A stretch of DNA of 64,000 nt. It comes from Cladopsammia gracilis. Taxonomy: Eukaryota > Cnidaria > Anthozoa > Scleractinia > Dendrophylliidae. The notes beneath the pieces are model-generated. The model was not told the origin of the DNA and searched no databases. It saw only the letters and a program-made list of their open reading frames with translations. Below are positions 297 to 44,749 of the stretch, piece after piece. The stretch spans positions 296,001 to 360,000 of the forward strand of contig JAJGOT010000214.1 in NCBI GenBank assembly GCA_022457155.1, in the 5' to 3' direction. Made by a program: the position numbers and the translations under genes. Within the stretch, counting starts at the first letter, position 1; every line of letters begins with the position of its first letter.

Positions 297-805
297 AATC
301 TGGCTTATGCTGTTTGTGACATCTGTGTTTAGCTTCTTCAACAAAAGCAGCATTTCAGATATTAAATCCTTTGAGCTTTGATCAGTCTGTATACACGTTT
401 GAGGATTGTTGACAGGAACAGCTCGAGCGATGGTGAGGGTTACAAACCATAAGAAAAGCATAAGAAAGCAAGTCTTCTCAGTGAATCCTACAATAGAAAT
501 AAATGAAAATATATATGTTTAGTTACTATGTAATTTCATGACTTATATTCAATTTTGAGCTTCAAAGTTAGAAAATGGATGGTTTGGACGGTTTTTCAGC
601 GCTGAAGACTATGTTTTAAGGTAAATAAACTACATTTTATTTTCTGTTGCCCGAAAGAAATATGGGGATACCTTTTCAGTTCCAGTTTTAACCATTTTAG
701 ACCAACCACACTCCTTAACGACTATAGTTATGTGAAATATTGTTTTAGCCAGGGTCACTACCAGTTAAAATGACATAATTCTCAACTCCTACCTTTCATT
801 TTCAT
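297..805 (-). CDS. Cytokine-like secreted protein, copy 1 (5' part; exons 1-2 only)
   Basis: Two coding exons are visible: exon 1 at 793-805 (ATGAAAATGAAAG, then GT donor at 791-792) and exon 2 at 297-487 (acceptor ..TATTGTAG, donor GTAAGT). The junction is phase 1 and exon 2 ends in phase 0, giving the first 68 residues; exons 3-5 lie beyond the left edge. The start MKMKGF is followed by a hydrophobic signal segment, then VPVNNPQTCIQTDQSS and a predicted helix with LISEMLLLLKKL. The intron is 305 bp. It is a paralogue of copies 2-4, but it lacks their KR dibasic pair before the Cys. A later in-frame ATG at 459-461 is a less likely start because it would discard the first-exon arrangement shared by all copies. 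Role inferred: secreted four-helix ligand. The family is not recognised by sequence. Confidence 0.72.
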
Positions 806-886
806 TCACTTACAACTGCAATATTCTCTGAAGATAGCTTCGTGTTCTTGAACAAATGATTATGCTCTGCGCATCAAGAGAACGCC

Positions 887-893
887 TTTTATA
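887..893 (-). promoter_or_regulatory. Proximal TATA box, copy 1
   Basis: TATAAAA on the minus strand in the context GAATGTATAAAAGGCG, about 80 bp upstream of the exon 1 start codon. The same box sits at the same place in copies 2-4. Two GGAAGT cores (927-932 and 946-951, plus-strand sense) lie just upstream. Confidence 0.6.
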
Positions 894-3200: not shown

Positions 3201-3335
<135 letters not shown>

Positions 3336-3511: not shown

Positions 3512-6500
3512 TCAGGGACAGATCTGTTTCTTCGTGACTATTAAGTCAGGATAGACTTCATGCAAAAGCTTTCCTTGTAATTCCGCCAAAATAGCCTTCC
3601 CATGATTCACTGCGATATCGATAAAGTGTTCGCTCCCGTTTCTCAATGCACCGTGTGAACGCACAGTGCAACGGGGTATGATAGTCATACAGATGCTGTC
3701 TGTGGTTTGATTGGCTGGCTGTGGCTTAAAAAAAACGCATGAAGAAGTTAATATTTGGAGTAAACAATCTTAGATTTTAGTTTGGGTTCGTTTACCGCAC
3801 GTGGACAAGCAAAGACCTTATAAGAGGATTATACTGTATTATTCATTGACCTGATGAGTATACAGTTGAAAAGGAATATACAGTTGGACTGATTTAATCA
3901 TCTACCTGAGGGTCACCAATACCTTACAGTATTCTGTATTCGCATTGTGACCGGACGAGTTCTTAGGAATTCTCAAATTTAAAAGTGTAGCGAATGCCAC
4001 ATATTTTACTTCAGGGGAAGGATTGATAACTTCTTACTAGGTACTTCAATAGAGGCTAACGTGTCCAGGTTATAATGAGTCCGATTTCACAAATAGACTA
4101 AAACCATAACTAAACGAATGTGTTTGATGGATCATAAATACAGTGCCTGTGGACCAGAGTTATTTCTTTAATCAAAACTATTGACAATTTCCTTAATTCT
4201 GACTGGTTTATAAACCATTGTATTTCCCTCCAATTTACCCAATTTACTTGCAAAGTTGTAATCGGACAGTTTGTTGTAATTGGACTATGTAACCATTAAC
4301 GAACCGCACTCGGACAGTCGTGAGCCAATCAAATGAACCAATCACATGATCATATTTCAATGCCAGTTTTGCAGTGATGAAAATTGTATAAACGCTCTCG
4401 ATTGATAAAAAGTTTTCTTCAAATTATTATATTGAATTTCTTCTCTTTTTTGTCAATTTGCTCTCGGAAATTGTTTAATAGTTATGATTAATTGCTGATG
4501 GGGGTGTCGGCCCAATTCTGTCTGTAATCATACTTGTGATTAACAAATCGGACTCCCTCCACGCGGTCGTCCTATTTTGTTATTAGGGAGCTTAAGCAAC
4601 CACGACGGCGACGGCAGCGAGAACGGCACAAAACAATAGGTTTAATGAGCAAAAACAATGCCTTTGCACGTGTGTTTTACATTTCGGTACATTTATTTGC
4701 CGTTCCTGCAAAACAACAACGTCAAATGATCAAATTGTAGGTTTTGTGGAGAACGTGAACATACAACGGTTAATTTTCCTTTCTCTATTTGATCTGGAAA
4801 GCCATTCCTTTAAATACGCAGTCACATTAGACAAACTAAACAAATTGGAAAAACTGCAAAGTAGTTTAAAATAGCCGAATCGATCCTTTTTTCAATTGAC
4901 GTTTTCCTTGGCGTTGCCGTCGTCGTTGCTTAGGCCCGGTTCAAACGTCGAACTTCACATGTGCCGAATCTAATGCAAATGAACAAGAACAATACACTTT
5001 GCTCATTTGCATTAGATTAGGCACATGTGAAGTTCGACGTTTGAACCGGGCCTTAAGCTCCCTATTATAACAGACGGAATTGGACTCCATTATTAATTGT
5101 ACTTACCTACCAAGTATAAAGTCAGTTATTTTTTAACAAAATTTTGCATCGTCATAAAATTAAAGAAAAGAAGTGTTGTTAACAGTCGAAGCGAGAGCCA
5201 CACCTTTATAGCTATTAAGAAGTTTTATTAATTTATTTCATGGGAAAATTGACTAAGAGAATGACTGAGCGTCCCCTTTGTGGACAAAAACCTTTGCCCG
5301 TGGAACAGGATTTCACTGCAATTTGATTTGATGTTCTATCAAGTATAAACAGGCAGTTGTAGTTTCGAAATATAAAGGGTTGATATATATATAAAAAAAA
5401 AGAATGGATTCGCTGTCTTAGAGTTCTTACCAAATGCAACGTGTCTCGTGCTTCTTGAAAATGTCGGATGAGATTCTTGGTGTCCCAACTCAAATCTTTT
5501 AACTTATGAGCAATGCCTTTTGTGTTAGGAACGGCATCAAATTCTCTTCTGGTACAATGAAGCAATGGGAGGAATGCCTTCAGAATACAATGATCAACTT
5601 TCAGGCGGGCTTGCATCTGTAGTCAATATTAACATAAAAAACAACGAGATTATAATTCGTTAAATACGTCACAATCTTCGAAATTTATGATAGTTGCAGT
5701 GTAGAACAAACAATATATTTGTGATGGCAAGGAATTTCAATGCTTGTGCAAGACTCAATATATGGAAATTATTGTTTAAATTCACTACTGGATTCTCGAA
5801 AGTAGCATTTATTTTACTCAATGTCCCACTTCAGATCATTTAACTGTCCCACCGAGCAGTCGTTTTCCGATTACGCCTATTTAATTCAAAAGTTATATGG
5901 ATATGGAAATGTTGAAACTAAAAATCCAATTTCCAAAAGAACCGAAGTAAAAAACGTGACTTCTTTGGGTAATCTGTCATTAAATATTGAATTTGTTTTT
6001 TTCCGTGATTGCTGAAATCGCCTTAATTAATGCTTCAAAGTTTACCGTAATAAATTTAACAATGAATCGGAGAAAAAATTGGGAAGCATTGAAAAGTAAA
6101 AAAAAAATATAGCAATCCTTCTTACATTATCATTTGCTCGTTGGGAGTAAGAAATGTAGATGGGGTAATCTGCTGGCTTGTATTCTCCTGGCCAGCGGAC
6201 ATTCTATAACAAAAAACAAACTTATTAGTATATAGAAAAAAAAACTCCAATAGTTAAAGAAAACATTTCATGATAAAAATAATTAAACTTGAGTTTTGGC
6301 ATTTAGTAGCCGTGCAAAGTATGAGAGGGATAGACCAGCAATAGTGTTCAATGAGATGTTCCATGCAAATATCGTCAACTTTATCATGAGACTTATGCGG
6401 ATATTGAAACTGCTAAATGCAACGGGAAAAGCAGTTCGATTCCCTCTTCTACATTTGCGATCCTTTTATTTCCAAGAGTACCCAAAATCAAAATTCAAGA

Positions 6501-7803
6501 AAAAACAAATTTTATATTATAAAATACTGAAAAATAAACGGTACACCGACGAAGATAACTGCTATACAGCTTTCGTTTGAATGGTCGGCACTGATAGAAT
6601 TCAATCCACAGCACATAACAGGACTAAAGGTTTAAATCTTGAAGTGAAAGAGTTAAAAATTGGTGAAATGGCGAACGAAGAAGATAAATGCTATGTAGCT
6701 TTCGTTTGATGGTCTTTACTGTTAGGACTCAATCCACAGCGTATAACTGGACTAAAGGTTTAAATCTTGAAGTGAAAGGGTTAAAAATTGGTGAAATGGC
6801 AAACGTTTGGATAATCTGGTGGTGTTATGGTATTTTGCAAGTTGTAAATTGCCATTGATATTTTGTTGCTTTCGAATGCAAACATGAACATGATATGCCA
6901 AACATCTGTAAGCGAACAGTGATCCCCCTCCCTGCTCTTAACGATCTCAGAAATATTCAGATAAGTATACTGATTTCCCTATTTCGCGGGCTTTGTGTTA
7001 GTTAAGACAATTCCTGATCTTTCAAAGTAAAGAATATACTTGGTTTATTCGTAGGCTGAACAGAAAAAAAAATCGCAAGACAATATTGCTCCATCGCGTC
7101 TAACGCCGTATCAGGGGCTCCTAACTTTTTTCAACAAATTAAAGTTAAGCTACTTACAATCTGCCTTGCGTTGTTTGTAACATCTGTACTTAGCTTCTTC
7201 AACAAAATCAGTATTTCAGATATTAAATCCTTTGAACTTTGATCAGTCTGTATACAGGAGGTGTGACGCTTGTTGACAGGAACACCTCGACAAATAGCGA
7301 AAGTAATAAACAGAAGAAGGAAAGTCTTCTGAAATCCTGCGATAGAAATTAATGAAAGAAGATGAATCATTCTTTTTCTGGCGACAGTATGTATAGCTAA
7401 TAGTCAATGTTCAGTTTCCTCCCTGAGATGCGCCTGCATGAAATCATGAAAGTTGTATTCAACAAATCAAGACTTAGTCCAAGATGGCAGACTATAAAGG
7501 CAAGTACCGTGATTCCCTGCAGGCGCGTCACATAGTAAGAACTGGGCATTTTGAGCTCCAATGTTAAAAAAAAATGTATATTGAATTTTAGAACGTTTAT
7601 GACGGTTTTTTAGCACAAAAGTCCATGTTTTCAGATCTTCAATTTCTGTTAAAAGAAATAGAGCAGTGCTTTTCCAGTTCATCAAATTTCAACCTAATAC
7701 GACCAATCAAATTCATTTCAGTTATGAATTTGAAAACGCGTTCTTGACAGAGTCATTATCATTTACAATAACATAATTCTCAGTCCTTACCGTTCATTTT
7801 CAT
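3512..7803 (-). CDS. Cytokine-like secreted four-helix protein, copy 2 (complete, 5 exons, ~222 aa)
   Basis: Exons (minus): 7791-7803, 7158-7336, 6126-6203, 5431-5616, 3512-3724; intron phases 1-0-0-0; all GT..AG. Exon 1 is only ATGAAAATGAACG. Exon 2 gives a signal peptide (TFLLLFITFAICRG), a VPVNKR dibasic site, Cys in SCIQTD and helix A (DLISEILILLKKL). Exon 3 has the RWP motif. Exon 4 (62 codons) has ILKAFLPLLHC and a second helix (TKNLIRHFQEARDTL). Exon 5 has sequons NQT and NGS, helix D (AILAELQGKLL) and ends KKQICP. Six Cys remain in the mature chain. The exon 5 acceptor can be AAG at 3725-3727 or CAG six bases later, both in frame (222 or 220 aa). Intron 4 is enlarged to 1.7 kb by inserted MITEs. 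Inferred role: secreted cytokine or hormone acting on a surface receptor. Exons are well supported; function is inferred. Confidence 0.8.
4586..5062. mobile_element. MITE, TIR GGGAGCTTAAG, flanks TATTA
   Basis: Left end GGGAGCTTAAGCAACCACGA and right end ..GTCGTTGCTTA[insert]TTAAGCTCCC are inverted repeats. TATTA lies directly outside both ends (4581-4585 and 5063-5067). A partial relative with AGCAACCACGACGGCGA lies at 49463-49720. Confidence 0.8.
4933..5052. mobile_element. Nested 120-bp palindromic MITE, TSD TTA (Harbinger-like)
   Basis: Starts GGCCCGGTTCAAACGTCGAA and ends with its reverse complement; nearly the whole element folds on itself. TTA duplicates at 4930-4932 and 5053-5055 match PIF/Harbinger target preference. 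It sits inside the right TIR of the surrounding MITE and so is younger. Confidence 0.85.
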
Positions 7804-10073: not shown

Positions 10074-11833
10074 GGAGGCTAGAAAGGGTTTTCAGCTGCG
10101 TGTGCGCGCGACGTGCACTCATCATGCACTGACGCATGCGTCAGCTGATTTTCCTATCAAAAAGTAGCGCGCGCAGCTCACCGGAAATTAAAATACTGCG
10201 TATCGCGCAAACCGGAAATAAATCGTGCATAAGATATTCTTCATCTTAAAAATTTGCTCGGTGACCTATCTTGAAATTTTTTTCATGCAAGTAGCATTCC
10301 ACTTTAATATCAAACATTTGAGACATTTAAAAAAAACTGTAAAGTGGAATTTTTTTAAATCTTTAAAAGGCCTTTTTCGATTTATCTCGATTTTCACAAT
10401 ATAGATTTTTTTGAAATTTACACAGGAAGTCAGAATATTGCAAACTTTTAAAAACGCTTTAAGAGCTTATAAAAAACATAGATCACCGAGTTAGTTTTAA
10501 AGATAGATTAAAAAAAAACTGACTTTTGGGGAATATGTCTTTGGGGGTTATAGTTACCATGGCAACACATATGACGTCATAAATGGTCTTGAAGGAAACT
10601 TTAACAACCCTGTCATAAGCTTATCTAATATATATAGATAGCCCAAGCCTAACAGCGTCGCACTTTGAACAAGCTTAACTAAGGTGAAACTTAACTAAGG
10701 TGAAAGGTTGGAAGCACAAGAATTAAGATTGACGAAGGGGCTATTTTCAATTTTAGCAATTCTCAAAAACAGTATTACGCGACCGTCTGCACAGTACATT
10801 TTTATAGACCGTACAAAAGTTCACAAAAACAACTTTTCTCTGTCTAGAATAAATAGTACCACTAGTTTCCGAATAAAATACAGTTTATGTTTGTCAAAAA
10901 TTGCCCGAGAAACTGATTTGAAAATCAAAAATTGCAAAAATACACAAACATATTTGCATAAGGCGATGCGAGTGAAGATAGAACTGTACTATAAAATCAA
11001 GTCTTGTTTTGTTTACATAAAATCGCTTTTCAATCTATCTAATGAATGAACAAACACATAAAAATGGACAACACAATCTTCTTTCGAAAAAATTTATTCA
11101 AATCGCCATTAGTTTACGTTTAAAAGCAAAACGCGTACCATGTAATTATAGCTCATCGAGTTCAAGCTTTCTTCGATGAAATTCAAGAGATAAGCACGTT
11201 TTAAAATCAATTCGCCAAAACTAACAATAACACTAATAACAAGTCACTCACAGATTGATATCAACATAAATTCTCATCGAAAACTGTAATCTGTTTTACC
11301 TTTAAGTTCCTCGCTTGCTTGGAAATTCAAATCTCCGCTTCTGGTTCTGAAATCATCTCCCGCATTGATAAAAATGTAATACATGAAGTTCCTCGAAGCA
11401 AGATTTTATCCCTGAAAGCTCGTCTTTTTCCACTAAAGCGGCTTCTGAGTATACCTTAATTGGTATCCCTGTCTTGAGTAGCAAACCGCGAAAAAATGCA
11501 GTTTAATTCTCCGCTAGGCACAAGAAAACAACTAAAGTGTTTACCGAGCTCACGGCTGTGTGGCCGCGCGAAAAACAAAGCCTTGCTTTCAAGATCCCGG
11601 ATGTTGTTCCAACACGGCGGGCGCCCGCGGGCGGACACGCGCCCGCGAAACATTCCGCTAGCCATGACCATGAAAAATCTTGGCGTAGGTTCTATGAGTA
11701 TGGAGCTGCGCAGCCAGGCCTTCGGCCTGGCAAGTGCTCCGCTATAATTTGTTTCAGAGACTAAAACCATGAAATTTTAATGTTTAACTGTTCTGACATG
11801 TACATAAGCTGTAAGAAATCCTTTGGCGCCTCC
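10074..11833. mobile_element. 1.76-kb TIR element with TTAA target duplication
   Basis: Ends GGAGGC.. and ..GCCTCC, bracketed by TTAA at 10070-10073 and 11834-11837. The uninterrupted site, with a single TTAA, is at 13350-13353 in the next spacer copy. A TTAA duplication suggests the piggyBac or Kolobok groups. No transposase frame is visible. It contains the repeat family also found at 57.6-61.4 kb. Confidence 0.8.
10770..11760 (-). repeat. Interspersed repeat R1, copy 1 (uninterrupted)
   Basis: The reverse complement matches 57625-57990 joined to 60626-61340. Shared landmarks include CATACTCATAGAACCTAC, the ACAAAGCCTTGCTTTC / GAGGCTTTGTTTTTCGCG region and the GATTGATATCAACATAAATT block. 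A shorter relative is at 26345-26650. Short frames at 11456-11770 fall in this GC-rich repeat and look non-coding. Confidence 0.75.
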
Positions 11834-12540
11834 TTAAGTCCTTTGTGTTTACCTTTCTTTCTAAAGAGGACGATTAAAATTGATTCCAAGAAAGTCCGGT
11901 TTAGAGGAAGTTTAGTATATTGGAACAAAACGCCGACAACGCCAAGATGACAAATTAAGTCATTGGAGCGCCATATTAGAACTGGAAAATAGCAATTTGA
12001 ATTGTCAGGTTTGTGAGTAGCAAGAAATAGAATAGTGAAACGTAACCTACTTATAAATTTTACAAAAGGGCAAAAAACCTATGCGCACGTGCACCTGCAC
12101 ATGCAACTTTCTTAGCCCACGCTAAACCAAATAAAAAATAAAAATACCCTACTAAAGCTGAAATCATTTTCTTTCCTCATGGCCGCATAAATAAATTATA
12201 CAAAACTCCCCCTGAGTAAAAATCCCTTTGCAACCATTTTTTCCTGTTTTAGGTCATGATATGCAAAAAAATATCCATGTTCTTGTTTATTACTTACATT
12301 TGTGCGCTTTCAGCAAATGCGAGGTTGGTTTGTTGTTGTTGTTTTTCTCCCCTTCGTTGTTGTCTTCTGTGTTTGACCATTTCGCTGCAAAAGGCAGCCA
12401 AAATCGAAAAACGAAAAAACAACAATCTGATTTTGTGTGAAATACGTCACAATCATAATGATACCAGCAACTTAAGCAGTTGCAAATAATTGAAAGAAAA
12501 TTCAAAGTTGAACGGGATTCGAAACCAATGTAATGCTCTA

Positions 12541-14060
12541 TCCAACTTGAGTTTCGTGGATGTCAATCAAAGGGAAACCGTTAACATTGTTTTTTGAATT
12601 CAGACTAGATTTCGAAAAGAAAAGAAAAAGTTAAAGTTTTGAAACAACCTTATTGAAAGTTAGTTACAGTTTTTAATTGAAGATTTCATTCAAAGTGATA
12701 AAGCATAGTGCTGCAAGCAGGGGCGTTATGATCTTTATGATAACCTACCATTGATGCCGGCACTATGGCTTTGCAAATTATCATGCAGTGAAATTTAAAG
12801 TTATAGTTTCAAGTACGGTTTCTGAAAACGAAAGCTTTCCTTTTTGTTTAAACTGGCTTATATATCAACTGTAATTAAGTTTTACCTTCGCTTATCTTGT
12901 AAAAATATGAGTACCTGGTATTTCAGTAAATTTATCTCATTTAAATATCTATCATACCGGCATAAGTGGTTTAACAAGCAATTCCCTACTGCTTGGTGCG
13001 TAATTTTGATAGGGCAGGGAATATATTATCACTTTAATATACTGATGAATTTTGTTTAATAACAAATTTATATGGTCCAATTCAGTGCCCGTAATAGATG
13101 ATTTCTCTTGTCCAACGGAGTTAATAAGGGACGGGCGGGGGATGGGGTTAGGCGTAGAAAACATCAATTAGAGACTGAACATTTTTTCAGCTTTTCGGGC
13201 CTCACTGTTTTTGTAAGATAAGGTGGAGGAGGGGGGGGGGGGGAGGGGAGTGACTAAGCGAGACACCCCCTCCCCCTACCCCCGGGCCACTCCCCTAAAT
13301 CTACCACTGCTTCTCTAATGGTCCAGTGCAGTGGCGGTTTCAACGATAATTAAGTCATTTGTGTTTACGATTAGAATTCATTCCAAGAAAGTCCGGTTTA
13401 GATGGAGTTTAGCATATTGGAACAAAACGCCGACAACGCCAAGATGACAAATTAAGTCATTGGAGCACCATATTAGAACTGGAAAATAGCAATTTGAATT
13501 GTCAGGAATCGTGAGTAGCAAGAAATAGAATAGTGAAACGTAACCTACTTATAAATTTTACAAAAGGGCAAAAAACCTATGCGCACGTGTACCTGCACAT
13601 GCAACTTTCTTAGCCCACGCTAAACTGAATAAAAAATAGAAATACTCTACCAAAGCTGAAATCATTTTCTTTCCTCATGGCCGCATAAATAAATTATACA
13701 AAACTTCCCTTGAGTAAAAATCCCTTTGCAACCATTTTTTCCTGTTTTAGGTCATGATATGCAAAAAAATATGCATGTTCTTGTTTATTACTTCTTCTTT
13801 ATTACATCTGTGCGCTTTCGGCAAATGTGAGGTTGGTTTGTTGTTGTTGTTTTTCTCCCCTTTGTTGTTTTCTTCTGTGTTTGACCATTTCGCTGCAAAA
13901 AGCAGCCAAAATCGAAAAACGAAAAAACAACGATCTGATTTTGTGTGAAATACGTGACAATCATAATGATACCAGCAACTTAAGCAGTTGCAAATAATTG
14001 AAAGAAAATTCAAAGTTGAACGGGATTCGAAACCAATGTAATGCTCTATCCACGCCCTAT
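12541..14060. repeat. Duplicated spacer unit, second copy (uninterrupted)
   Basis: Carries the single TTAA at 13350-13353 that is the empty site of the 10074-11833 insertion. Contains a G-rich run at 13220-13250. Nothing gene-like was found. Confidence 0.75.
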
Positions 14061-14069
14061 CAATAGCCC

Positions 14070-14516: not shown

Positions 14517-17500
14517 TCAGGGGCAGATTTGTTTCTTGGTGACTTTTAAGTCAGGATAGACTTCAAGCAAAAGCTTTCCTTGTAATTCCGCCAAAATAGC
14601 CTTCCCATGACTCACTGCGATATCGATAGAGCGTCTCCCGTTTCTTAGTGCACTATGGGACCGCACAGTGCAACTGGGTGTGATACAGGTGTTGTCTGTG
14701 GTTTGATTGGCTGGCTGTGGCTAAAAAGAACACATGAAGTAGTAATTGTTAAGAGAACCTTTTTTTAGTTAGATTTCCATCATGATAAACTGAGTTTGGG
14801 TTCGTTTATCACACGTGGACAAGGACAAGCAAAGACCTTTTAAGAGGTTCCGAGTACATTATGCATTGATCCTGATGAATGTACAGTGGAAATTAAAGGA
14901 ATATCACAGTTGAACTTAGTTAATCCTCTACCTGAGGGCCACCGATACATTGCCTTATTCATCTTGTGGTCGGATAAGTTCTTAGAAATTCAAAAGTGGA
15001 AAGGATACCACATGTTTTGTTCTGGGAAAGAAAGTCATGACTTCTTACTATGTATTTCAATAGAGGCTAGAACGTGCCCAGGTTAGAATAATTGGTTCGA
15101 TTTCACAATTACAGACTAAAACCACAACTAACCGAATGTGTGAAAGTTTGTTTGAAAAACAAAAACTTGTGTCCGTGGACTAGGATAATATCTTTAATTG
15201 TACTTCAGGCCAACCAAGTATAAAGTCAACTTTTATTTAAACAAAGTTAAGCGTCGCAATCATATTTCACATTTCTTACCAATTGCAGCGAGTCCTGTGC
15301 TTCTTGAAAATGTCGGATGAGATTCTTGGTTCCCCACCTTAAATCTTTCAACTTGTGAACAATGCCTTTTGTGTTAGGAACGGCACCAAATTCTCTTATG
15401 GTACAATTAAGCAATGGAAGGAATGCCTTCAGAATGCACTGATCAACTTTCAGGCGGGCTTGCATCTGTTGTCAATATTAACAAGAAAAGCAATGGCATA
15501 TAGCTTGTTAGAAATACGATACGTCATAATCTTCGGAATTTAATTTTGTTACAAAAAAGTATATTTGTAATGGTATGTTTAGATCGATTATAAGGAATTT
15601 AATCAATCCGATTTTCGCTCTCCGATCTCTAACGATTAATGAAGCAATATATGGGGATTTTATTTTGTCAATGGTAATGTAATTCATTAACTAAAGAATG
15701 TCATATAACAAAAAAAAAGTTGATATGTCAGGGACGTGTATGTTTAGATGCCGGCTAGGAATTTTGATGTTTTTGCTACGTAAACAATTAAAGTCTCAAT
15801 ATATTGGAATTATAGTAAAAATTGACGTTGATGTTTTTACTCAATGTTGTCCCATTTTCCCGATTATGTTTGATTTTAATGAATCAAAAGTTACAAGGAT
15901 ATGGAAATGTTTGAATCTAAAATTCCAATCATCAAAAGGAACCGAAAAGGGAACGTGTTTTTTTAAGGTAATCTTCCAAATTCAATTTTGTTTTATTTAT
16001 TTTCATGATTGCTGAAATCTCCTGTTAATCAGTGGTTCATAGTTTACTACAATAAATTAAACTGTCGCTGTTAAGTCATTTACAGAATTGAACATTGAAA
16101 TAGAGAAATAATTGGGAAGCATTGAAAAGCTAGGAAAATATAGCAATCCTTGTTACATTATCATTTGCTCGTTGGGAGTAAGAAATGTAGATGGGGTAAT
16201 TTGCTTGCTTGTATTCTCCTGTTGGCCAACGGACATTCTACAACAACAAACAAACTTATTAGTATAAAACTAAAATGGTTAAATTAAAGATTTCATGATA
16301 AAATTAATAACTTGAGGCTCATTAAGTAGCCGTGCAAAGTATTTATTGAGATATTTCTTTTATATAACGTCAATGTGGATATTCAATGTGTATTCAATGT
16401 AGATATTCAAAATGCATCGCTAAAAGCAGTTTCTTCTACTTTTGTGATCCTTTTATTACCAAGAGCAGCCAAAATATAAAAATGAAGAAAAAAACAGATC
16501 ATGGTTCTGTTAATGTATTTAACAAGTTGTCAATTAATTGTTATATTTTGTTGCCTTCAAATGCAACATGACATGTTAAACATCTGTAAGCGAACAGCGA
16601 TCCCCCTTCCTCTTAGTACCGATCTCAGATATATTTCGATAAGTACACTGAAGCGATTTATCTGTTTCGCGGGCTTTGCATGAGTTAAGACAATTCCTGA
16701 TCTTTCAAAGTGAAGAGTATTCTTGGCTTTATTGATAGGCTTTATTTTGATAGGCTGTACCTATTTTTAATTTATACATTACGTATACATCTTTGTAACT
16801 TTATAGTGCGAATAAACGTTGTTGTTGTAGTTATTAGAAAAAAAACACAAGACGATATTGCTCTATCGCTTCTAACTCCGTATCATGGCCTCCAAACTTT
16901 TTTCAATAAATTTAGTTTTTGAAGCTACTTACAATCTGCCTTGTGTTATTTGTAACATCTGTGCTTAGCTTCTCCAACAAAACCAGCATTTCAGATATTA
17001 AATCTTTCGAGCTTTGGTTAGCCTGTATACAGGGGGTGTGACGTTTGCTGACAGGAATACCTCGACAAATGGCGAGAGTAATAAACAGAAGAAATCCTGC
17101 GATGGAAATTAATGAAAGAAGATGAATCATTTTTTTTTTCTGGCGATTTGTTTCAGTATGCATAACTGACAGTCAATGTCCAGTTCCCCCCTGTTAGATG
17201 CGTCTGCAAGAAATCATGGAAGTTTTATTCAACAAATGATGACAGACTATAAAGGCAACTACCATGATTTCCTGCAGGCGCGTCTCATAGAAGGAACTAG
17301 GCATTTTGAGCCTCAACGTTTAAAAATTGTTATGGGAATTTTAGAACGTTTATGTCGGTTTCTCAGCACAACAATCCATGTTTTCAGATGATCTATTTCT
17401 GTTAAAAGAAATAAAGCAGTGCTTTTCCAGTTTTTCAAATTTCAACCCAATACAACCAATCGCATTCGTTTCAGTAATAATGTGTTCTTGACAGAGTCAT

Positions 17501-17541
17501 TATCATTTATAATAACATAATTCTCAATCCTTACCGTTCAT
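14517..17541 (-). CDS. Cytokine-like secreted four-helix protein, copy 3 (complete, 5 exons, ~213 aa)
   Basis: Exons (minus): 17535-17541 (ATGAACG), 16933-17096, 16157-16237, 15280-15465, 14517-14720; phases 1-0-0-0. Compared with copy 2, exon 2 is 15 bases shorter, which removes five residues from the signal peptide (MNGFLLFITLAICRG), so the hydrophobic core is short. IPVSKR precedes Cys in TPCIQAN. Exon 3 has RWPTGEYKQANYP; its donor is AAT|GTAACA, weaker than GTAAGA in copies 2 and 4. Exon 4 has ILKAFLPLLNCT, which creates an N-C-T sequon. Exon 5 begins PQPANQTTD and ends KKQICP. Six Cys in the mature chain. Introns are 438, 695, 691 and 559 bp, without the large insertion of copy 2. Closest to copy 4. 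Inferred role as for copy 2. Confidence 0.78.
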
Positions 17542-21434: not shown

Positions 21435-24400
21435 TCAGGGGCAGATTTGTTTCTTGGTGACTTTTAAGTCAGGATAGACTTCAAGCAAAAGCTTTCCTTG
21501 TAATTCCGCCAAAATTGCCTTCCCATGACTCACTGCGATATCGATAGAGCGTCGTCCGTTTCTCGATGCACTATGGGAACGCACAGTGCAAGTGGGTGTG
21601 ATACAGATGTTGTCTGCGGTTTGATTGGCTGCCTGTGGCTAAAACGAACACATAAAGTAGTAATTATTAGGAGGAAATAATCTTAGATTTCCGTCATGAT
21701 ATACTGAGTTTGGGTTTGTTTACCGCACGTGGACAAGCTTAGACTTTTTAAGAGGTTTCGACTTCATTATCCATTGACCCTGATGAATGTACAATGGAAA
21801 AAGAATATCACAGTTGAACTTTGTTAATCCGTCTACCTAAGGGCCACCACGTTGTGGCCGGACGAGTTCTTAGGAATTCAAAACTAGAAACGATGCCATA
21901 TGTTCTGCTCTGGGAAAGAAAGTCATTACTTCTTACTATGTATTTCAATAGGGGCTAATGTGCTTGGGTTAGAATAATGAGTTCGATTTCACAAACAGAC
22001 TAAAACCACAACTAAACAAAAGTGTGTGAAATTTTTGAAGAACGAAAAACTGTGTCCGTGGACTACAATTATATCTTTAATTGTATTTCAGGCCAACCAA
22101 GTATAAAGTCAGCTTTTATTTAAACAAAGTTAAGCGTCGCAATCATATATATTTTTTTATATATATTTCACATTTCTTACCAGTTGCAGCGAGTCCTGTG
22201 CTTCTTGAAAATGTCGAATGAGATTCTTGGCTCCCCACCTTAAATCTTTCAACTTGTGAACAATGCCTTTTGTGTTAGGAACGGCACCAAATTCTCGTCT
22301 CGCACAATGAAGCAATGGAAGGAATGCCTCCAGAATACAATGATCAACTTTCAGGCGGACTTGCATCTGTTGCCAATATTAACAAGAAAAGCAATGGCAT
22401 ATAGTTTGTTAAATGCGTCATAATCTTCGGAATTTTAGTTTGTTACAAAGCATATTTGTATTAGATCGATTATAAGGAATTTAATTAACGTTTTCGCCCT
22501 CTAACAATTAATGCATCAATATATGAGGATTTTATTTTGGCAATGGTAATGTAATTCATTAAGAATGTCATATAACAAAAAAGGTTGATATGTCAGGGAC
22601 GGTATGTTTAGATGCCGGCGAGGAATTTTAATGTTTTTGCTACGTAAACAAATAAAGTCTCAATATATTGGAATTATAGTAAAAATTTTCTACTTGATTC
22701 TCGAAAGTACTAGTAGCATTTATTTCAAACGTATGTTGGTTTATATAATGTCGATAAAACTTCGATACTTTTAAGGACATTCAAAGACAACGTTTTTTCT
22801 CAATGTTGTCCCATTTCTCCGATTATTTCTGCTTTAATGAATCATAAGTTTCAAGGATATGGAAATGTTTGAATCTAAAAATCCAATTACCAGAAGAACT
22901 GAAATGAAAACGTGGTTTTTTAAGGTAATCTGCCATATTCAATTTTGTTTTATTTCATGATTGCTGAAATCGCCTGTTAATCAATGCTTCAAAGTTTACC
23001 ATGATAAATTAAACTGTCACTGTTAAGTTATTTACAGAATTGAAAATTGTAATGGAGAAATAATTGGGAAGTATTGAAAAACTATGAAAATATAGCAATC
23101 TTTCTTACATTATCATTTGCTCGTTGGGAGTAAGAAATGTAGATGGGGTAATCTGCTTGCTTGTATCCTCCTCCTGGCCAACGGACATTCTACAACAACA
23201 AACAAACTTATAAATATATAGAAAAAAACTCAAATAGTTAAATTAAAGGTTTCATAATAACATTAATAACTCGAGGCTCATTAAGCAGCTGTGCAAAGTA
23301 TTCAATGAGATGTTTCTTATATATATATAACGTCAATATGGATATTCAAACTGTTAAATGTATCGCGAAAAGCGGTTTCTTCTACTTTTGCGATCCTTTT
23401 TTATTATCAAGAGCAACCAAAATCAAAATTGAAGGAAGAAAACAAATTCTATTTTATAAAATACTGAAAAATATTTTGTACGAAGAAGATAACTGCTATA
23501 CAGTTTTCGTTTGAATGGTTGGCACTGTTAGAATTCAATCCACAGCGTATAACACGACTAAAGATTTAAATCTTAGAGTGAAAAGGTTGAAAATAGCAAA
23601 ATGTTTGATAATCTTAGATAAATCATGGTTCTGTTAAGGTATTTAACAAGTTGTAAATTAATTGTTATATTTTGTTGCCTTCAAATGCAAACATGACATG
23701 TTAAACGTCTGTAGGCGAACAGCGATCCCCCTTCCTCTTAACAATCTCAGATATATGTACAATGAAGCGAGCTTCATTAGTTAAGATAATTCCTGATCTT
23801 TCAAACTAAAGCCGGAGTATACTTGGCTTATTGATAGGCTGAACAGAAAAGCATCACAAGACAATATTGCTCCATCGCGTCTAACTCCGTATCAGGGACT
23901 CTAAACTTTTTTCAATAAATTAAGATTTTGAAGCTACTTACAATCTGCCTTGTGTTTTTTGTAACATCTGCGCTTAGCTTCTCCAACAAAACCAGCATTT
24001 CAGATATTAAATCCTTCGAAATTTGATTAGCCTGTATACAGGGGGTGTGACGTTTGTTGACAGGAATACCTCGACAAATAGCGAAAATAATAAACAGAAG
24101 GAAAGTCTTCCGAAATCCTGCGAAAGAAATTAATGAAAGATGAATCATTCTTTTTCTGGCGATTTGTTTCAGTATGTATAACTAATAGTCAATGTCCAGC
24201 TCCCCTGCTAGATGCGCCTGCATGAAATCATGGAAGTTAATATTCAACAAATCAAGTCCAAGATGGCAGACTATAAAGGCAAGTACCATGATTCCCTGCA
24301 GGCACGTCTCATAGAAAGAACTGGGCATTTTGAGCCTCAACTTTACAAAAAATGTTTATGGGAATTTTAGAACGTTTATGCACAGCACAAAAGTCTATGT

Positions 24401-24569
24401 TTCCAAATGATCTATTTCTGTTAAAAGAAATAGAGCAGTGCTTTTCCAGGTCTTCAAATTTCAACCCAATACGACCAATCGCATTCATTTCAGTAATGAA
24501 TTTAAAAACGTGTTCTTGACAGAGTCATTATCGTTTACAATAACATAATTCTCAATCCTTACCGTTCAT
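21435..24569 (-). CDS. Cytokine-like secreted four-helix protein, copy 4 (complete, 5 exons, ~217 aa)
   Basis: Exons (minus): 24563-24569 (ATGAACG), 23942-24117, 23109-23189, 22181-22366, 21435-21638; phases 1-0-0-0, donors GTAAGG/GTAAGT/GTAAGA/GTAAGA. Signal MNGFRKTFLLFIIFAICRG, then IPVNKR dibasic and Cys in TPCIQAN, helix A DLISEMLVLLEKL. Exon 3 RWPGGGYKQADYP. Exon 4 ILEAFLPLLHC and KNLIRHFQEAQDSL. Exon 5 has an NQT sequon, helix D AILAELQGKLLLEVY and ends KKQICP. Six Cys in the mature chain. Introns 445, 752, 742 and 542 bp. Differs from copy 3 by only a handful of residues per exon, so the two are the youngest pair. Inferred to be a secreted ligand; expression unknown. Confidence 0.8.
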
Positions 24570-33771: not shown

Positions 33772-36700
33772 TTAGTTACAAGTCTGTACTTTGATTTTCC
33801 ATAAGTCAACGTTCAGATTAAGAGCATTTGAGTAAAACTCATCCAATATGAGCTTTGTTTGGAAAGTAACATCTTGAATGGTTGGAACGGAGCCAATATT
33901 TGAAGTACCGGTAATCTTCTGGCCTTCTTGACTTCCCGGTTTGTGTGCCCCTTGTTGTCCTCGCTGTTGCTGTGGGATAAAATAGGACAAAGAAACTGTT
34001 AACGATATAGTGGGTAGCAGATCGAGTCAACACACAAAAGCTATAAATTACAAGGTCATCAAATGTGAATATCTAACGAGAAAGCCTAAAAAAGCCTAAG
34101 CTACCCAGTTACAGCATTTTTACATCATTTCAGAAGAGAAAATATAGCATCAATTGGCCTACATCGTAAAATTAATTAGAGATTCAATTATTTTAAAAAT
34201 AGATTACAAAATGTAGTTTATTGTTGTGAAGTGATTATTCAAAGATGTATATTTTCAAGATTATTGCACACCCAAATAAGGTTTTTGTTGTTATTGTTGT
34301 TGTTGTTGTTTACTAAAATAACGGACATGTAACGTGGCTCGACATCCAAACCTTGAGACGTGGATGTGGTTCAAACTTCCAGGGCCTGTTTGCATGGAAG
34401 GACGGTGGCCCGGTTACAGTAGCCGGTTGACTACCGGTCTAGCTGGGATAAAACTTAGCTGGCCTTCACATGTATTATTAAATTTACTAGCAGCAGCATT
34501 ATTTGAGGCATGTTTAGGCGTGCGAATGCCACAATCTCTTAATAATTCTATTATTAATCTGTCTGCCGTGTAAAGCAAACGGCAAAAAAAAAAAACAAAG
34601 CTGGGTGACCCTTCTATGCAGGCAATCCGGCTAGGCGGGTCACCCTCCCTCCATATAAACAGGTCCTTAGTCTGTGGATGTATTCCTAAGCTTTGACTAT
34701 TCAAATGAAAGACTTTTTGGCAATACTTTCCAACGGTGCTGTTTGAATGTAGTTAATTATTGTGTGTTTTAGATTGTAGAATATTAAAACAAACCCCCAG
34801 GCTAATACTTACAAATGTCAGGATTGCCACAATTTTTCTCAAACAACTGATTAGTGTTTTCGTCTGTCTTTTCAGACGCACTAGTTGGCTCTTTACACCT
34901 TCATCAACTTCAAAACGATTTAGCTGGTTCGAGGAATTCTCTAACAATGAGATAAATATCCTCAATATATGACAGTTTCTTTTGAGCATAGTCACAGGCT
35001 GAAACAGAGAGAAACATCACTTACAAACAACTCATTTAATTGTAAAACAAGCATTTTATAATATAACTTTTAACCATGACTATGTGAAACCTGTATTACT
35101 AGTAAGAGGACACCCTGGAAACTCTCCCTAGTGTCCGCTTCATAGGGGGTTCCGCTAAACACAGGTTCGTTTTTTACAGTAAATATGGGAAGAAAATTTA
35201 GGGACCTAAGCAGCTGGTGTCCGCTTAATAAAGGTTTCACTTGAAAAGATCAGCCATATTTTTCTGTTATACCAAAGTGAAGTTACCATCTATTTAGTAT
35301 ACTGTAACTGGCCCCAGTGACTGACGTGTTAATTGTTTTAGTGGTCCGGTCACAATGAAGCCTAATAATTCATGCTTCATCTAGAAAGCGTAAAATCTAT
35401 CTATTCACGATCCAGAAACACTGAACGAATCGTTTCGGTGTAATTGGCCTTACTCATCTTAAAAATTCGTAAGAAATTGGATTAAAAACTAGTGTTTTCT
35501 TAAGTAAAATGTCGCCTCAAACCTTCGTAACATCGGAAAATTAAACGCCTTTTGTTTTCGGAGGGATCAAAAGTGTTCGGAGAATGTTCGGAAAATGTTC
35601 GGAAAATGTTCGGAATATGTTCGGAAGCTGTTCGGCTTTCTTTAGTAAAATGTCGCCTCAAACCTTCGTAACATCATCGGAAAATTAAAACGCCTTTTGT
35701 TTTCGGTGGGATCAAAAATGTCGTTTTGGGTATGAAATAAGGTCAGCAAGAATTTTAGGAAAGGAGAAAGCTGACATAACCCCATCAAGATTGATCGTAA
35801 GCGATGCGCAAGGAGTGAAACAAATCGATCAAGAAAATGTTGTACGGTTTAACCTTCCATAGCTTACCTTATCTGCAGTTTTATTGAAGTTTTGAAGACG
35901 AAGGAAAAAATCAACAGTGGTTTCTTGGTAAGGATCTGTAGGCCATCTTGTGGACTGAAAAAAGGTCAAGAAATAACAAAATGAAAATACTTGGCGAGTT
36001 GCAATATTTATAAAATACTTATTATGGCCGTCCATTTGCATTGTAACGCATCTCATATAATGTTGTAATTTCACATCATTTGTCAGTTTGTTCTTTAGAT
36101 AAAGACGCTCCATGATATACAAGTTACAAACGAAATATATGTTATATATACGTAGCTAGCAATGTGATTATAATGATGTCTTAGGTAAAAACAATCGTTT
36201 TCAAAAGCTGGAATCACTTTCTCGCACTAAATGACGTGTTAAACATCAAGCTAAAAATGTTTAATGACAGATAGCGCTGAAATTGTGTTTGGATTCGAAT
36301 GCTTCTTGCCTGTCATAAAATACTTCATGCAGAGGGAAAGTATAGCTATCTTGGTTTTGGCGTATGGACGCTAAAAATCTTTCTATGTCAGCTTAAGCTA
36401 TGTTGAGTATCATCTTAAAGTCAAAAGAGATTTGTCCCAAAAAATGGTCTAATTTCGTTTAGATTCACTTAAACTATAGATATCTATAGATTGCAAAGGT
36501 AAATCTATAGATATGGATTACAAGTAAAACAATTTGCGCCAACTTTTGGCCACTTTCCAGTGACTTTCTTCCGCTTCGCCTGGGAAAAATCTCTAAATGG
36601 TGTCTTCCTCTTGGGATATAAGCAATAGTACTTATTCATAGTGTTTGCACGAGAAAAACATTAAATTCCCCATGACAAAGTTAAAGAAGTTAATAAACGA

Positions 36701-37152
36701 AGATAAAGAAAAGAAATTGCTTACCATTTCTTGGCTAAGAACAGAGCTTTGTCCTGCCACTAGGTTAGATAACCCCAATGCATCTCTGAGTAAGGAATGA
36801 ACATCTTTATTCCTCTGGCAAGAAATTTTAGTTGGAAAAGCGTTCACTGCGATAAAAGCGGCGGCGGCCAGGATACTTGTAGTCAATATTCCTATGAAAA
36901 ATAAAGTTTAAAGTTTTTTAAAACAAGACCAGCAGCGATACGAAAAAGTAAAGACGCAATTTCATTTAACTTCTCGTGTTCTTCAAGTACAGTATTTTTC
37001 AATTATCAAAACAATCAACTCAAACGGTTGAAAAACAAACTGACGGCTCTCTAAATTCGCCCCAAATGAAATTATTTAATTTATTTAAGAAGAAACAGCA
37101 TGAATTAAAGGAATAATAAGAAAAGAGCTTTCAACATTGCCTTACCTTTCAT
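33772..37152 (-). CDS. Cytokine-like secreted four-helix protein, copy 5 (diverged, 5 exons, ~214 aa)
   Basis: Exons (minus): 37146-37152 (ATGAAAG), 36725-36891, 35868-35954, 34813-34998, 33772-33969; phases 1-0-0-0; donors GTAAGG, GTAAGC, GTAAGC, GTAAGT. Signal MKGILTTSILAAAAFIAVNA with a clean A-x-A cleavage site. Exon 2 has Cys in ISCQRNK, then helix A. Exon 3 has STRWPTDPYQ and sequon NKT. Exon 4 is 62 codons, the same as in copies 2-4, with RNCHILRIFISLLENSS and SCLRKIVAIL. Exon 5 starts with a Q-rich loop (QQRGQQG), then helix D (KLILDEFYSNAL), and ends VQTCN. Only four Cys in the mature chain. Overall identity to copies 1-4 is low, but exon lengths, phases, RWP, ILRxF and the C-terminal Cys align. 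Likely a paralogous ligand with its own receptor range (inference). Confidence 0.75.
34290..34318. repeat. (TTG)n tract
   Basis: Short GTT-rich microsatellite in intron 4 of copy 5. Confidence 0.8.
34381..34672. mobile_element. MITE, TIR GGNCCTGTTTNNATGG, in intron 4 of copy 5
   Basis: Left GGGCCTGTTTGCATGG and right CCATATAAACAGGTCC are inverted, with a further inner match (GGGTGACCC types). Target duplication not resolved. Frames across it (34334-34704) are incidental. Confidence 0.65.
35100..35245. repeat. MITE-like palindromic repeat (GTGTCCGCTTNATA)
   Basis: AGTAAGAGGACACCCTGG.. and ..GGTGTCCGCTTAATAAAGG with an internal AGTGTCCGCTTCATAGGGG. Lies in intron 3 of copy 5. Confidence 0.5.
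35505..35715. repeat. Tandem duplication with GTTCGGAAAAT minisatellite
   Basis: AATGTCGCCTCAAACCTTCGTAACATC occurs twice (from 35508 and 35648), each followed by AAAACGCCTTTTGTTTTCGG. Between them, TGTTCGGAAAAT-type units repeat about six times (35570-35640). Confidence 0.85.
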
Positions 37153-40355: not shown

Positions 40356-40359
40356 TGCC

Positions 40360-41246: not shown

Positions 41247-41360
41247 AATTCAATAAAACTTTTACAAGTGTAATTTACAAGTGTAGCCATTGCTTCAGAG
41301 GTTGAAAACACTAGCTACACTTGTAAACTACTCTTGTAAAAGTTTTATTGAATCGATCCA
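41247..41360. mobile_element. Palindromic MITE (TCAATAAAACTTTTACAAGT)
   Basis: Left TTCAATAAAACTTTTACAAG and right CTTGTAAAAGTTTTATTGAA are perfect inverts. It sits inside a second inverted pair, TTTGAGTGGAAGTGAGATTGACG (41368-) and CGCCAGCCTCACTTTCATTCAAA (to 41526), so two fold-backs lie side by side. Confidence 0.75.
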
Positions 41361-41768
41361 TGGTCTTTGAGTGGAAGTGAGATTGACGTTGACCTTGTTT
41401 TAATACAAACCTTTCTGCTTTTCATCTGTAAATCATGTCGTTCTTATGCTAAACATTTTTTTGTTTAGCATAAGTACAAATGAAAAGCGGAAAGGCAGTC
41501 AACGCCAGCCTCACTTTCATTCAAAGGCCAGGGTCCTAAGTACACAACTGTGAAATGACCTATCAAACTATAATTTATAACTTCTGTTTCTTCTGCTACA
41601 AAATGGTTGAACTTTTAATTCTGTAGGTGAAATCCCAAATCCTGAAAGCTATTTAGCAGTTATTTTTGTTATTCTGCAATACATTACAAGGCAAACGATA
41701 ATTACCGACCTTTGAGAACGAGAAGGTCAAAATACCTTCAGCTCACTAAGCATTTAACCAATCTGAAA

Positions 41769-44749
41769 TCAAACGCATTTAGTCTTCCGAATTTTGTTAA
41801 AGTCGACATCCATTTGGAGGAGGCTTGAGTACAAGTCATCAAGAATCACGGAAACACGAAGCGCCACGCCGTGAATTGTGGGAGTAGTAGAATTTGAGGC
41901 TTGGGTAAAGTTGTGCGTGGTGCGCATGGGCATAACTGCTGTGACAGATACCGTTGAATCATTTGTTCGTGTCCTTGTTCCCTGCAATTATAATGGTCAC
42001 ACCTATTACTACACGGATATTAGTATCCTTAGTGTTAAAACACTGGAACCTCTTTTATTTTCGTTTGAAAGTGTTTTTGTGGAGGTAATTATAATTTTTG
42101 TGTAAATGTTTGGTCTCTTTGGGACAAAGTTAATTGCAATAAGGATCAGTTCGTATTACATGTATAGAGTTGCAGGTAGGATACCGGTAAAGTCGCACCA
42201 AGTCACTGGTGGTCGATAAAGCCGGAGCCTAACCCGGTTGGTGACGCATTTATACACCTGGGTTAAAAGAGACAATGTAGAGCAAAGATTTCTGCACACT
42301 AAACCATTACACCACCGCGCCTCTATGAGGTTTACCGGAAATAAAGCAGAATTTTGGCCTTTTACAATTGCCTTGTTGCATTGCCATCTGTAATAAGAAG
42401 GTGTCCGTATTATCACGGTATACTACAGAGGAACAGTTAACACGATTTGTGGTCATCATTTGGGAAAAAGTGAGGCTTCGTAGACGGGTGCTGCGTGTGT
42501 TACTACATTTACATTTAGTTACTGCATTAATTTGCTTACAGAATTAAAGATTCGCCGCAACTTCCGCAAAATAATTTGATTTAGATTGATTATGCTTCGT
42601 AGCTCGTGCTCCAAATTCTTCAAATGTTGAGCGACTGCTGAACCATCGGGGAATCGCTCAAATTCAGCTGACGAATTCTTTATCAGAGGCAAGAAGCTCC
42701 TTAGTATACGCTGATCAACAAGAAGGAGGCTTCGAGGCTGAAAACAAAATCAGACAAACGAAAAAATAGCTAAGTAACGATGGCTTTCAACGCTAACAAC
42801 TGTACAAATCAACATTATAACTGATCTGAATTCAAGTTTAACCAAGCGATCACTCTCGTAAGAGATGATTCCTCCTAAACGACACCATTCATGAAATTCC
42901 CTTATTGTGTGTGTTTATGTGTGCCACGTAATCATCGATCATCATGTAAAATGCGATTTTCGATGCGATGTTTCTTGCGATCTCCAATGCAACTTTTTGT
43001 CGCAAGTGTAATCTAGAGGCAACTTCGAAGCCATTTTGACGCGATATTTGCTGCGTTTCCCACAAATCGCTGCCAAGTTGCATCAGGTTTCAAACAAATC
43101 TCAAACAAATAACGCTTTAGATCACCGCTAGTGTACTCATGTGACTTTTATCAAGAGCTCGAGCGCGAAAAATGTTGCATTAACAAGTGCGACAAAAATT
43201 GCACATAAAATGACATGTGTAAACTAGCCTTCAAAAATCTCGCGAAACTTCTCAACCAATTAGAAGTAAAACCAAATCCAATTGTGAGTTACTCACACGC
43301 GTTTTCGTGCGCTTGGAGCCGACTACGTCTATATGCTTCGAGCTCTGATTGGTTCATTGGATTGTGTGTGCCTGTTTTGATTGAACAGAGTAATTACTTT
43401 GGTTTTGGTTTTACGATACTCAGTTGAAAACCGCTCTAAAACGAAATATTAGAGTTATACCGTTAATTCAGTGCTGTTAAGTGGCCTGGGAGCTATAGAA
43501 AGTGAGAAGTCAGCAGTTCCCCATTGATCAGATGGTGTAAGCCACTTGCTGGACTAAAGAAACCAAGGAAAATTAAAAAGTTTAGAAACGACAAACGAGC
43601 TCGAGTTGTGTACAGAAATGAATGAATGAATGAATGAATGAAAGAATGAATTATAGTAATAGTATCATATATCTTTATTGCGCCTTACTCTCCAAAGGGA
43701 GGTAGTATTGGTTTACTTACAGTAAACGGTAAACGTTAACAAGTACAATAAAGTTAAAATTATTAGTATGGAAATATCAAAGCTAAAAAATAAATAACGT
43801 ATTAATTAATTACATTTGTGCTGATTATCTCTTTTCTTTTCTGGAACATTAAATGGATGCACTTGCCTACAACTTGTATTGTATTGTCATTGTCTAAAAT
43901 TAGTAAATATAATTTTATCATAATTACTCAAAGTAGCAGGGAAGAATCTGTTGTGCAAATGAGGAATGTAGTTTGGTTCTTAGATGGATAAGTGGGTGGG
44001 TAAACCAATAAATTAATTCACTTACTACATTCGTAAAAGAACGGTAAACGTTTCCTCCTAGTCTCACAGACAATGGTAATAAATTCCATATCAAGTCTCT
44101 TGTTGTTTTATCGAGTTTGCAGTGGGGGGAATATTTGTCCACCGGTGAAGAGTACGCAGCTAAGCACAAAACGGCCAACAAAACTAGTGTTGTCTTTAAA
44201 AATCCTACCAGAGAAAAAACATATTCATAAAAAATTATATGAAGCACCGGAAGATAATGAAATAGCTAAAGCGTGTTATACACTATCTTTTCAGAGATAA
44301 AAAAGATCATCACATCAGGCAAACGAGAGGGGCCAGTTTTCCCGTATAAATGATTTTTTTTTTTCTCCCTTCAACACCAACACTTTGAAATTCCAATTCT
44401 GTTTGGAAACAGTGGATCATAAGAAGAGCCACTTTGTTAATAATCCATTCACAATATAGCTAGAAACTTTATAAATGAAATAAACGGCCATTTGCTGGAT
44501 TTTCCTCAGTGAAAGGGTTGACTATATTTTTTTCACAGTTTTTCTTGACATATGTTTAATTATATAATCCTTTATTATTGTGCACGTTTGCTAAAAGTAT
44601 GACTTTCTTTAATTCAGTTGCGAACTTCGATTCTCAAATTTTAAACTACTACTGGCCATTTCCAAAAGAATATTAACACATTGGTAGATCTGTATCCTAA
44701 GTCAAAATGTATTATCAATGGTGTATAGGTATTTGCACTCACCTGGCAT
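41769..44749 (-). CDS. Cytokine-like secreted four-helix protein, copy 6 (diverged, 5 exons, ~229 aa)
   Basis: Exons (minus): 44743-44749 (ATGCCAG), 44026-44204, 43461-43553, 42540-42737, 41769-41981; phases 1-0-0-0. Donors GTGAGT, GTAAGT, GTATAA (weak), GTAAGC. Signal MPGFLKTTLVLLAVLCLAAYS. Exon 2 has Cys in SPHCKLDKTTRDLIWNLLPL (helix A). Exon 3 has SSKWLTPSDQ, with KWL in place of RWP, and sequon NST. Exon 4 (66 codons) has QRILRSFLPLIKNSS and a second helix around LEHELRSIINLNQIILRKL. Exon 5 has three sequons (NDS, NFT, NST), helix D (VILDDLYSSLL) and ends KTKCV. The mature chain has just two Cys, one before helix A and one after helix D, the spacing expected for a disulfide joining the chain ends. 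Five sequons suggest a heavily glycosylated secreted protein. TATA box at 44857-44864. Confidence 0.76.
42165..42325 (-). mobile_element. tRNA-type SINE fragment
   Basis: Minus strand GAGGCGCGGTGGTGTAATGG resembles a pol III A-box head, followed further on by ACCCAGGTGTATAAATGCG, which I recall from cnidarian SINEs. The region around the B box is eroded. It lies in the last intron of copy 6. Confidence 0.55.
43230..43440. repeat. Interspersed CCAAT-rich repeat, copy B
   Basis: AACCAATTAGAAGTAAAACC.. to ..TTTGGTTTTGGTTTTACGAT..GAAAACCGCT, ending just before exon 3 of copy 6. Matches 40360-40640 and, more weakly, 14070-14190 and 20935-21075. Confidence 0.7.
43617..43651. repeat. (GAAT)n microsatellite
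   Basis: GAATGAATGAATGAATGAATGAAAGAATGAA in intron 2 of copy 6. Confidence 0.85.

Follow-up and report, generated by a model that had tools for sequence, protein, structure and literature searches.

The 64,000-nucleotide window analysed here, positions 296001-360000 of contig JAJGOT010000214.1 (C492) of the coral Cladopsammia gracilis, carries much of a tandem gene array whose products are probably secreted ligands of the long-chain class I helical-cytokine type. These proteins would probably form four-helix bundles, and their gene plan would share its ancestry with that of vertebrate EPO, GH and IL-6/G-CSF. A preliminary description of this DNA had reported six same-strand genes (A-F), with a signal peptide, similar exon sizes and, in the five complete copies, intron phases 1-0-0-0. 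All six were located anew at the level of single exons, at the positions given there and on the minus strand, window position 44749 being the A of the gene F start codon and position 297 the final base of gene A exon 2. Genes B-F are complete inside the window, and gene A runs past its low-coordinate end, with exons 3-5 in the adjoining part of the contig; coordinates outside the window are given on C492. The array nevertheless proved larger than six genes. It extends to the left of the window and includes at least 12 genes, of which ten gave complete models (A, B, C, D, E, F, G1, G2, G3 and H3) and two, H1 and H2, are represented by exons 2-5. The whole spans about 115 kb (about 226-341 kb on C492), with every gene on the minus strand in the left-to-right order H1, H2, H3, G1, G3, G2, A, B, C, D, E, F.

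A five-exon plan kept by divergent subfamilies

The case for a cytokine-type family begins with the gene plan, which is specific. In all ten completable models, those of B-F included, the intron phases are 1-0-0-0, the introns are bounded by GT-AG (40/40) and a single stop ends the reading frame; exon boundaries were picked by eye to suit the 1-0-0-0 plan, so the GT-AG count is partly a product of construction. Exon sizes across these models, drawn from five subfamilies, are 7 / 155-218 / 78-108 / 177-198 / 189-249 nt, and both the phases and the similarity of sizes noted earlier are upheld. In the common layout, the leader is encoded in exon 2 together with a Cys and the first helix; two helices come from exon 4 and the last one from exon 5. 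When helix positions are taken from a low-confidence structural model, the division of helix A, AB loop, helices B and C, and helix D over exons 2-5 recurs in 10/10 complete models. Gene F is one such example: it reads ATG CCA G, an intron, then exon 2, which completes the leader and adds the Cys and the first helix, and it closes in exon 5 with Cys-Val-stop. A hydrophobic N terminus was seen by eye in each of the ten complete models, in agreement with the signal peptide already proposed, and the leader of each protein would be cleaved.

This plan is retained although identity between the five subfamilies is 19-30%. Alignment of F, E, D, A, G3, G2 and G1 with P0006, a 240-aa hypothetical protein of Porites harrisoni that is 65% identical to F, reveals an invariant Trp opening exon 3, invariant Leu/Ile core positions in exon 4 and an invariant C-terminal Cys, together with a Cys before helix A that is present throughout and one column off in some sequences. 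The shared motifs of the preliminary description (RWP/KWL and others) hold inside subfamilies, but a comparison of A, D-G, G3 and P0006 leaves only 8 invariant columns. The Cys pair, one before helix A and one near the C terminus, occurs in 10 of the 12 genes, H1 and H2 being without the C-terminal member; gene F has just two Cys after the leader, at residues 31 and 228. H1-H3 form a more divergent group than the other array genes. When the H subfamily (two sequences) was compared by profile with the other genes, the result was E 0.00048 at a probability of only 32, and its membership therefore rests on exon plan, position and strand.

Relatives of the family occur in the stony coral Porites. 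P0006, known here as protein only, is continuous through the parts encoded by all five exons. P0001 of Porites lobata appears by eye to consist of exons 2-4 of an A/D-type gene continued by exons 3-5 of one of the G type, suggesting a tandem gene order shared with that species. At least eight distinct related proteins were among the matches listed in the protein search, in which one query was scored against 7999 candidates only, both named ones coming from Porites, and the six remaining matches mostly read into introns when inspected by eye. No such cnidarian gene family appears to be described in the parts of the open-licence literature surveyed, which is not proof of novelty.

Vertebrate counterparts, predicted fold and competing explanations

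The genes of GH, EPO, G-CSF and IL-6 generally open with a tiny phase-1 exon, an element of the vertebrate plan invoked in the preliminary description, and the five exons of EPO and G-CSF are documented in the sources cited below. EPO is similar in length to the coral proteins and its N- and C-terminal Cys form a bridge, so that terminal Cys are found in both, whereas Cys placement in G-CSF/IL-6 differs from that of the coral family. Human EPO has five exons, as here, and its exon 3 of 87 nt lies at nucleotides 160 to 246 (PMC5473850), which implies phase-0 introns on both sides if counting starts at the start codon; the coral exon 3 measures 78-108 nt. EPO is described with crossover loops that are both long and a BC loop that is short (PMC5473850); for the coral proteins a low-confidence model predicts a short BC loop and long AB and CD ones. 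Unlike EPO, the coral family forms a tandem array of at least 12 genes in a cnidarian host, and no sequence similarity between the two is detectable with Pfam or PDB sequences. G-CSF of carp, human and mouse retains five exons and four introns, and sequence identity between the paralogues of carp is quite low (PMC6389648). The coral genes resemble those of G-CSF/IL-6 in their five exons and, by sequence and prediction, in encoding a secreted helical protein, but their products have no Pfam IL-6/G-CSF match.

The structural check proposed earlier was run with AlphaFold2 on the relative P0006, using four sequences for model 1 and 18 rows for model 2. Both models contain a leader helix followed by four long helices, A, B, C and D, joined by a long AB, a short BC and a long CD loop, model 1 adding two short helices. 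In model 2 the helices span residues 35-66 (A), 89-121 (B), 127-162 (C) and 204-238 (D). Confidence is low: the mean predicted local distance difference test score (pLDDT) is 41.8 for model 1 and 59.7 for model 2, and the predicted template modelling score of model 2 is 0.46.

Several observations weigh against a cytokine identity. Confidence in the fold is low, model 2 pLDDT in blocks of ten residues being 78-88 in the B-C hairpin, 42-61 in A and 52-66 in D. Foldseek against the PDB gave best E values of 0.98 (model 1) and 0.40 (model 2), with nothing at E≤0.001 and no cytokine in the best 50 of 106 and 186 matches, respectively. VIA-align rows other than 6egc mostly span helices B-C alone; 6egc is a single-chain designed bundle, probably with short loops, and its match would, if anything, favour an up-down-up-down arrangement for the model over the up-up-down-down topology of the cytokine type. 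Pfam searches with six proteins at a maximum E of 10 returned no cytokine (best DUF4973, 0.021, and CART, 0.063), with the Pfam filters discarding most matches above about 0.1, and PDB sequences searched to E 10 also yielded none. On the side of the pathway, the JAK PH-like domain had no match in the genome, a domain silent in control genomes too; a JAK/SYK motif pattern had zero matches (with no positive control); and IL6Ra-bind had two, at E 2.5 and 8.9, both below cut-off. JAK and cytokine receptors may, moreover, have been added in Bilateria (PMC6797617).

Two further searches bear on classification. No cytokine was in the best 50 of 426 chains aligned by VIA-align, an absence that is no evidence, and Pfam at a maximum E of 1 gave no EPO/TPO, GH/PRL or IL-6/G-CSF match for seven alignment members, a set overlapping the six above. 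Since the profiles of these three families were tested and unmatched, the coral family is filed, on sequence criteria, as cytokine-like and outside the EPO, GH and IL-6 families. A match to the cytokine receptor common beta chain among PDB sequences (E 0.84) was set aside as a receptor domain and not significant.

The explanation that competes best, although unlikely, is a lineage-specific family of secreted helical proteins that are not cytokines, serving for instance in defence, symbiosis or the matrix, with an exon plan alike by coincidence. The lack of a cytokine profile match, and of a cytokine fold among the matches listed, would be expected of such a family; so would named relatives found only in Porites among the matches listed, and fast divergence with tandem expansion fits a defence family too. 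Coincidence would have to account for more than the phases. With frequencies of about 0.3 for phase 1 and about 0.45 for phase 0, taken as independent, 1-0-0-0 arises in about 3% of five-exon genes; coincidence becomes less likely as the source of the likeness because the first-exon stub, the loop exon, the two-helix exon, the Cys pair and the loop lengths agree as well, and because five subfamilies have kept the plan at their low mutual identity, but genes that are copies of one another do not testify independently.

It is improbable that the proteins are four-helix ligands of a receptor tyrosine kinase, acting in the manner of CSF-1, SCF or FLT3 ligand with no need of JAK. Ligands of the CSF-1 type are short-chain and dimeric and have a different gene plan, whereas the helices predicted here, at low confidence, are 32-36 residues long. 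In favour of such ligands, JAK was not found with the one domain and one motif used while STAT is present, and a kinome table lists the FPVR kinase group first in Cnidaria (PMC8662651).

The cytokine-type interpretation is favoured by the exon plan, the helix-to-exon map and the Cys pair, as the preliminary description had supposed, but the low-confidence fold and the missing cytokine match leave it probable rather than firm, the fold being the reason for this restraint. According to this interpretation, the protein would fold into helices A-D, with a disulfide joining the Cys before helix A to the C-terminal Cys, and the ligand would bridge two receptor chains on a target cell, leading to tyrosine phosphorylation and STAT signalling. 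The five divergent subfamilies may be ligands with differing receptor preferences that have drifted apart. A bolder proposal, advanced tentatively, is that these are true homologues of the vertebrate ligands: a five-exon ligand gene would have existed in the cnidarian-bilaterian ancestor, and the coral cluster would hold at least 12 diverging ligands feeding STAT, possibly without JAK.

The search for receptor, JAK and STAT suggested earlier gave a divided outcome, as STAT was found but JAK and the receptor domain were not, in tests that were weak. One exon matched STAT_bind at the family cut-off (27 bits, E 0.0035), and STAT_linker matched in the same locus at E 9.9e-9; translated alone, the STAT_bind exon had no Pfam match at 0.1. 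These matches indicate that STAT is present in the coral genome. The receptor motif W[ST]xW[ST] did not occur in open frames of at least 15 residues in the 204 kb examined around the array (C492:196001-400000, part masked). The coral ligands would resemble Drosophila Unpaired in being invertebrate helical ligands acting through STAT. The Drosophila pathway comprises Domeless, Hopscotch and STAT92E, and the canonical pathway predates chordates, the fruit fly being the example given (PMC3296744). The four-helix bundle, SHP, STAT and SOCS are placed already in cnidarian ancestors by PMC6797617, whose section on them names no cnidarian ligand. The kinome table lists JAK under Chordata (PMC8662651). 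Together with it, these statements on the origin of JAK and receptors imply that the coral ligand side may precede or bypass the classic receptor-JAK module.

A conceivable partner of the coral ligands is CRLF3, a WSXWS receptor grouped with the EPO receptor, whose native ligand is not known and which is present in Cnidaria (PMC6797617, PMC12026705). Its domain structure is called contentious, and it may not be a classical surface receptor (PMC12026705), which weakens its candidacy as the receptor of this family.

Class I cytokine signalling is generally regarded as bilaterian and mainly vertebrate. Class I receptors are reported throughout bilaterial species (PMC12026705). If the shared protein shape holds, a vertebrate hormone-like gene layout in so simple an animal would be surprising, and coral ligands with an EPO-type plan would give the idea of PMC6797617 concrete genes. 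Orphan receptors, CRLF3 among them, would gain candidate ligands, and the coral would offer a system whose ligand, receptor and kinase may have reached different stages of assembly. Coral immunity and symbiosis would also be touched on by a cytokine-like cluster that is diversifying. The question is directly testable because the exact exons are known.

Coding constraint and recognition of the exons

The ratio of nonsynonymous to synonymous divergence (dN/dS, NG86) is 0.32-0.60 in the 11 of 45 gene pairs with more than 45% identity, the only pairs for which it was computed. Differences at codon positions 1/2/3 number 17/14/32 for BC, 22/18/28 for BD and 14/10/14 for CD, so that third positions differ most in two of the three comparisons, and in all three pairs exons 2-5 are conserved more than introns 2-4, whereas intron 1 is conserved about as well as the exons. 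Recognition across subfamilies was assessed with exon hidden Markov models (HMMs) leaving one subfamily out, with four groups held out and H excluded. Exon 4 was recognised in 4/4 groups (best E 9e-13 to 6e-8), exon 5 in 3/4 (the A-D group was missed, E 4.3), exon 2 in 2/4 (E and G were missed, E 2.7 and 0.79) and exon 3 in 0/4. In three of the four held-out tests of exon 5 the best outside match was that exon of H (E 0.045-0.25), and one held-out test of exon 4 had H exon 4 as its best outside match (E 1.1). Applied to the 204 kb, the exon HMMs, whose profiles include the genes themselves, gave 34 matches at E≤1e-3, all on the minus strand, and zero at that threshold on the plus strand or in reversed DNA. 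No exon 3 profile was used to locate this exon in G1 and G2: the stretch from exon 2 to exon 4 offered 6 and 12 candidates, respectively, that were open from AG to GT and 66-120 nt long, and a single exon among them, present in two nested forms, showed conservation along its full length and bore the marker Trp of exon 3.

A search of the 878-Mb genome with gene F gave 13 matches at E≤10. Six, at E≤0.002, all lie on the C492 minus strand: four are exons of F itself, and two are terminal exons that belong to new genes. The seven weaker matches (E 0.27-7.8) comprise four inside genes A, B, C and E and three, at best possible relatives, on other contigs. Genes C and D, introns included, are by their sequence recent tandem copies about 7 kb apart, and intergenic spacer DNA at window positions 11764-14080 and 19479-20550 is itself duplicated with high identity. 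A good donor site is missing from exon 4 of H2, and a search for exon 1 found none in H1 or H2. That the genes are decayed, or artefacts of exons picked by eye in repeated DNA, is very improbable: the hand-set boundaries, the conserved intron 1 of B, C and D, the unrecognised exon 3 and the defects of H1 and H2 speak for it, but the dN/dS values, the coverage of the same exons by P0006 in another species, the held-out recognition of exons 4 and 5 and the silence of the plus strand and reversed DNA all contradict it.

Exon coordinates and neighbouring elements

Table 1. Exons of genes A-F and a candidate promoter element (window positions unless C492 is given)
Feature	Position	Strand	Remarks
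Gene F TATA-like box (tataaat), candidate	44858..44864	-	upstream of start codon, by eye
Gene F exon 1	44743..44749	-	ATGCCAG, phase-1 end
Gene F exon 2	44026..44204	-	leader, Cys31, helix A; held-out E 1.2e-6
Gene F exon 3	43461..43553	-	AB loop, SSKWL
Gene F exon 4	42540..42737	-	helices B + C; recognised with F held out, E 3.5e-11
Gene F exon 5	41769..41981	-	CD loop, helix D, Cys228, stop; recognised with F held out, E 7.9e-13
Gene E exon 1	37146..37152	-	ATGAAAG
Gene E exon 2	36725..36891	-	
Gene E exon 3	35868..35954	-	STRWP
Gene E exon 4	34813..34998	-	helices B + C; held-out E 8.3e-9
Gene E exon 5	33772..33969	-	held-out E 5.8e-5
Gene D exon 1	24563..24569	-	ATGAACG
Gene D exon 2	23942..24117	-	
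Gene D exon 3	23109..23189	-	NVRWP
Gene D exon 4	22181..22366	-	
Gene D exon 5	21435..21638	-	
Gene C exon 1	17535..17541	-	
Gene C exon 2	16933..17096	-	
Gene C exon 3	16157..16237	-	
Gene C exon 4	15280..15465	-	
Gene C exon 5	14517..14720	-	
Gene B exon 1	7791..7797	-	
Gene B exon 2	7158..7336	-	
Gene B exon 3	6126..6203	-	
Gene B exon 4	5431..5616	-	
Gene B exon 5	3512..3724	-	
Gene A exon 1	793..799	-	ATGAAAG
Gene A exon 2	297..487	-	
Gene A exons 3, 4, 5	C492:295108-295022, 294721-294536, 293388-293200	-	left of window

A TATA-like box before the start codon was seen by eye in genes A-D as well as in F, and none was seen by eye upstream of the gene E start codon. Within 160 bases before the start codon of genes A-D, a conserved TTGCAAAA stands beside a AAACTTCC-like stretch and is followed by the TATA-like box (by eye), an arrangement that may represent an inducible promoter.

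About 54 kb from gene F, on the plus strand at about 394.9-398.0 kb of C492, lies a locus with a DBB domain (PF14545, E 1.3e-10), an ankyrin-like exon below cut-off (E 0.044) and a tail in which eight or more YxxM tyrosine motifs were counted by eye; its sequence marks it as a BCAP/BANK/Dof-type signalling adaptor. Mobile elements also occur near the array. Window positions 50300-54230 (plus strand) hold a retroelement, presumably of the DIRS type, with an RVT_1 match (E 3.4e-7), a zinc-knuckle-like stretch and a downstream frame that resembles a tyrosine recombinase and has no Pfam match. On the minus strand, a DEAD helicase exon, which we take to be RecQ-like, lies at 60047-60466 (PF00270, E 3.2e-12), and a Myb/SANT-like DNA-binding exon, possibly transposon-derived, at 47138-47509 (PF13837, E 7.2e-7). 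Finally, a run of long open frames at about 372-392 kb of C492 resembles a large DNA transposon, presumably, from the appearance of the open frames only, of the Polinton/Maverick type.

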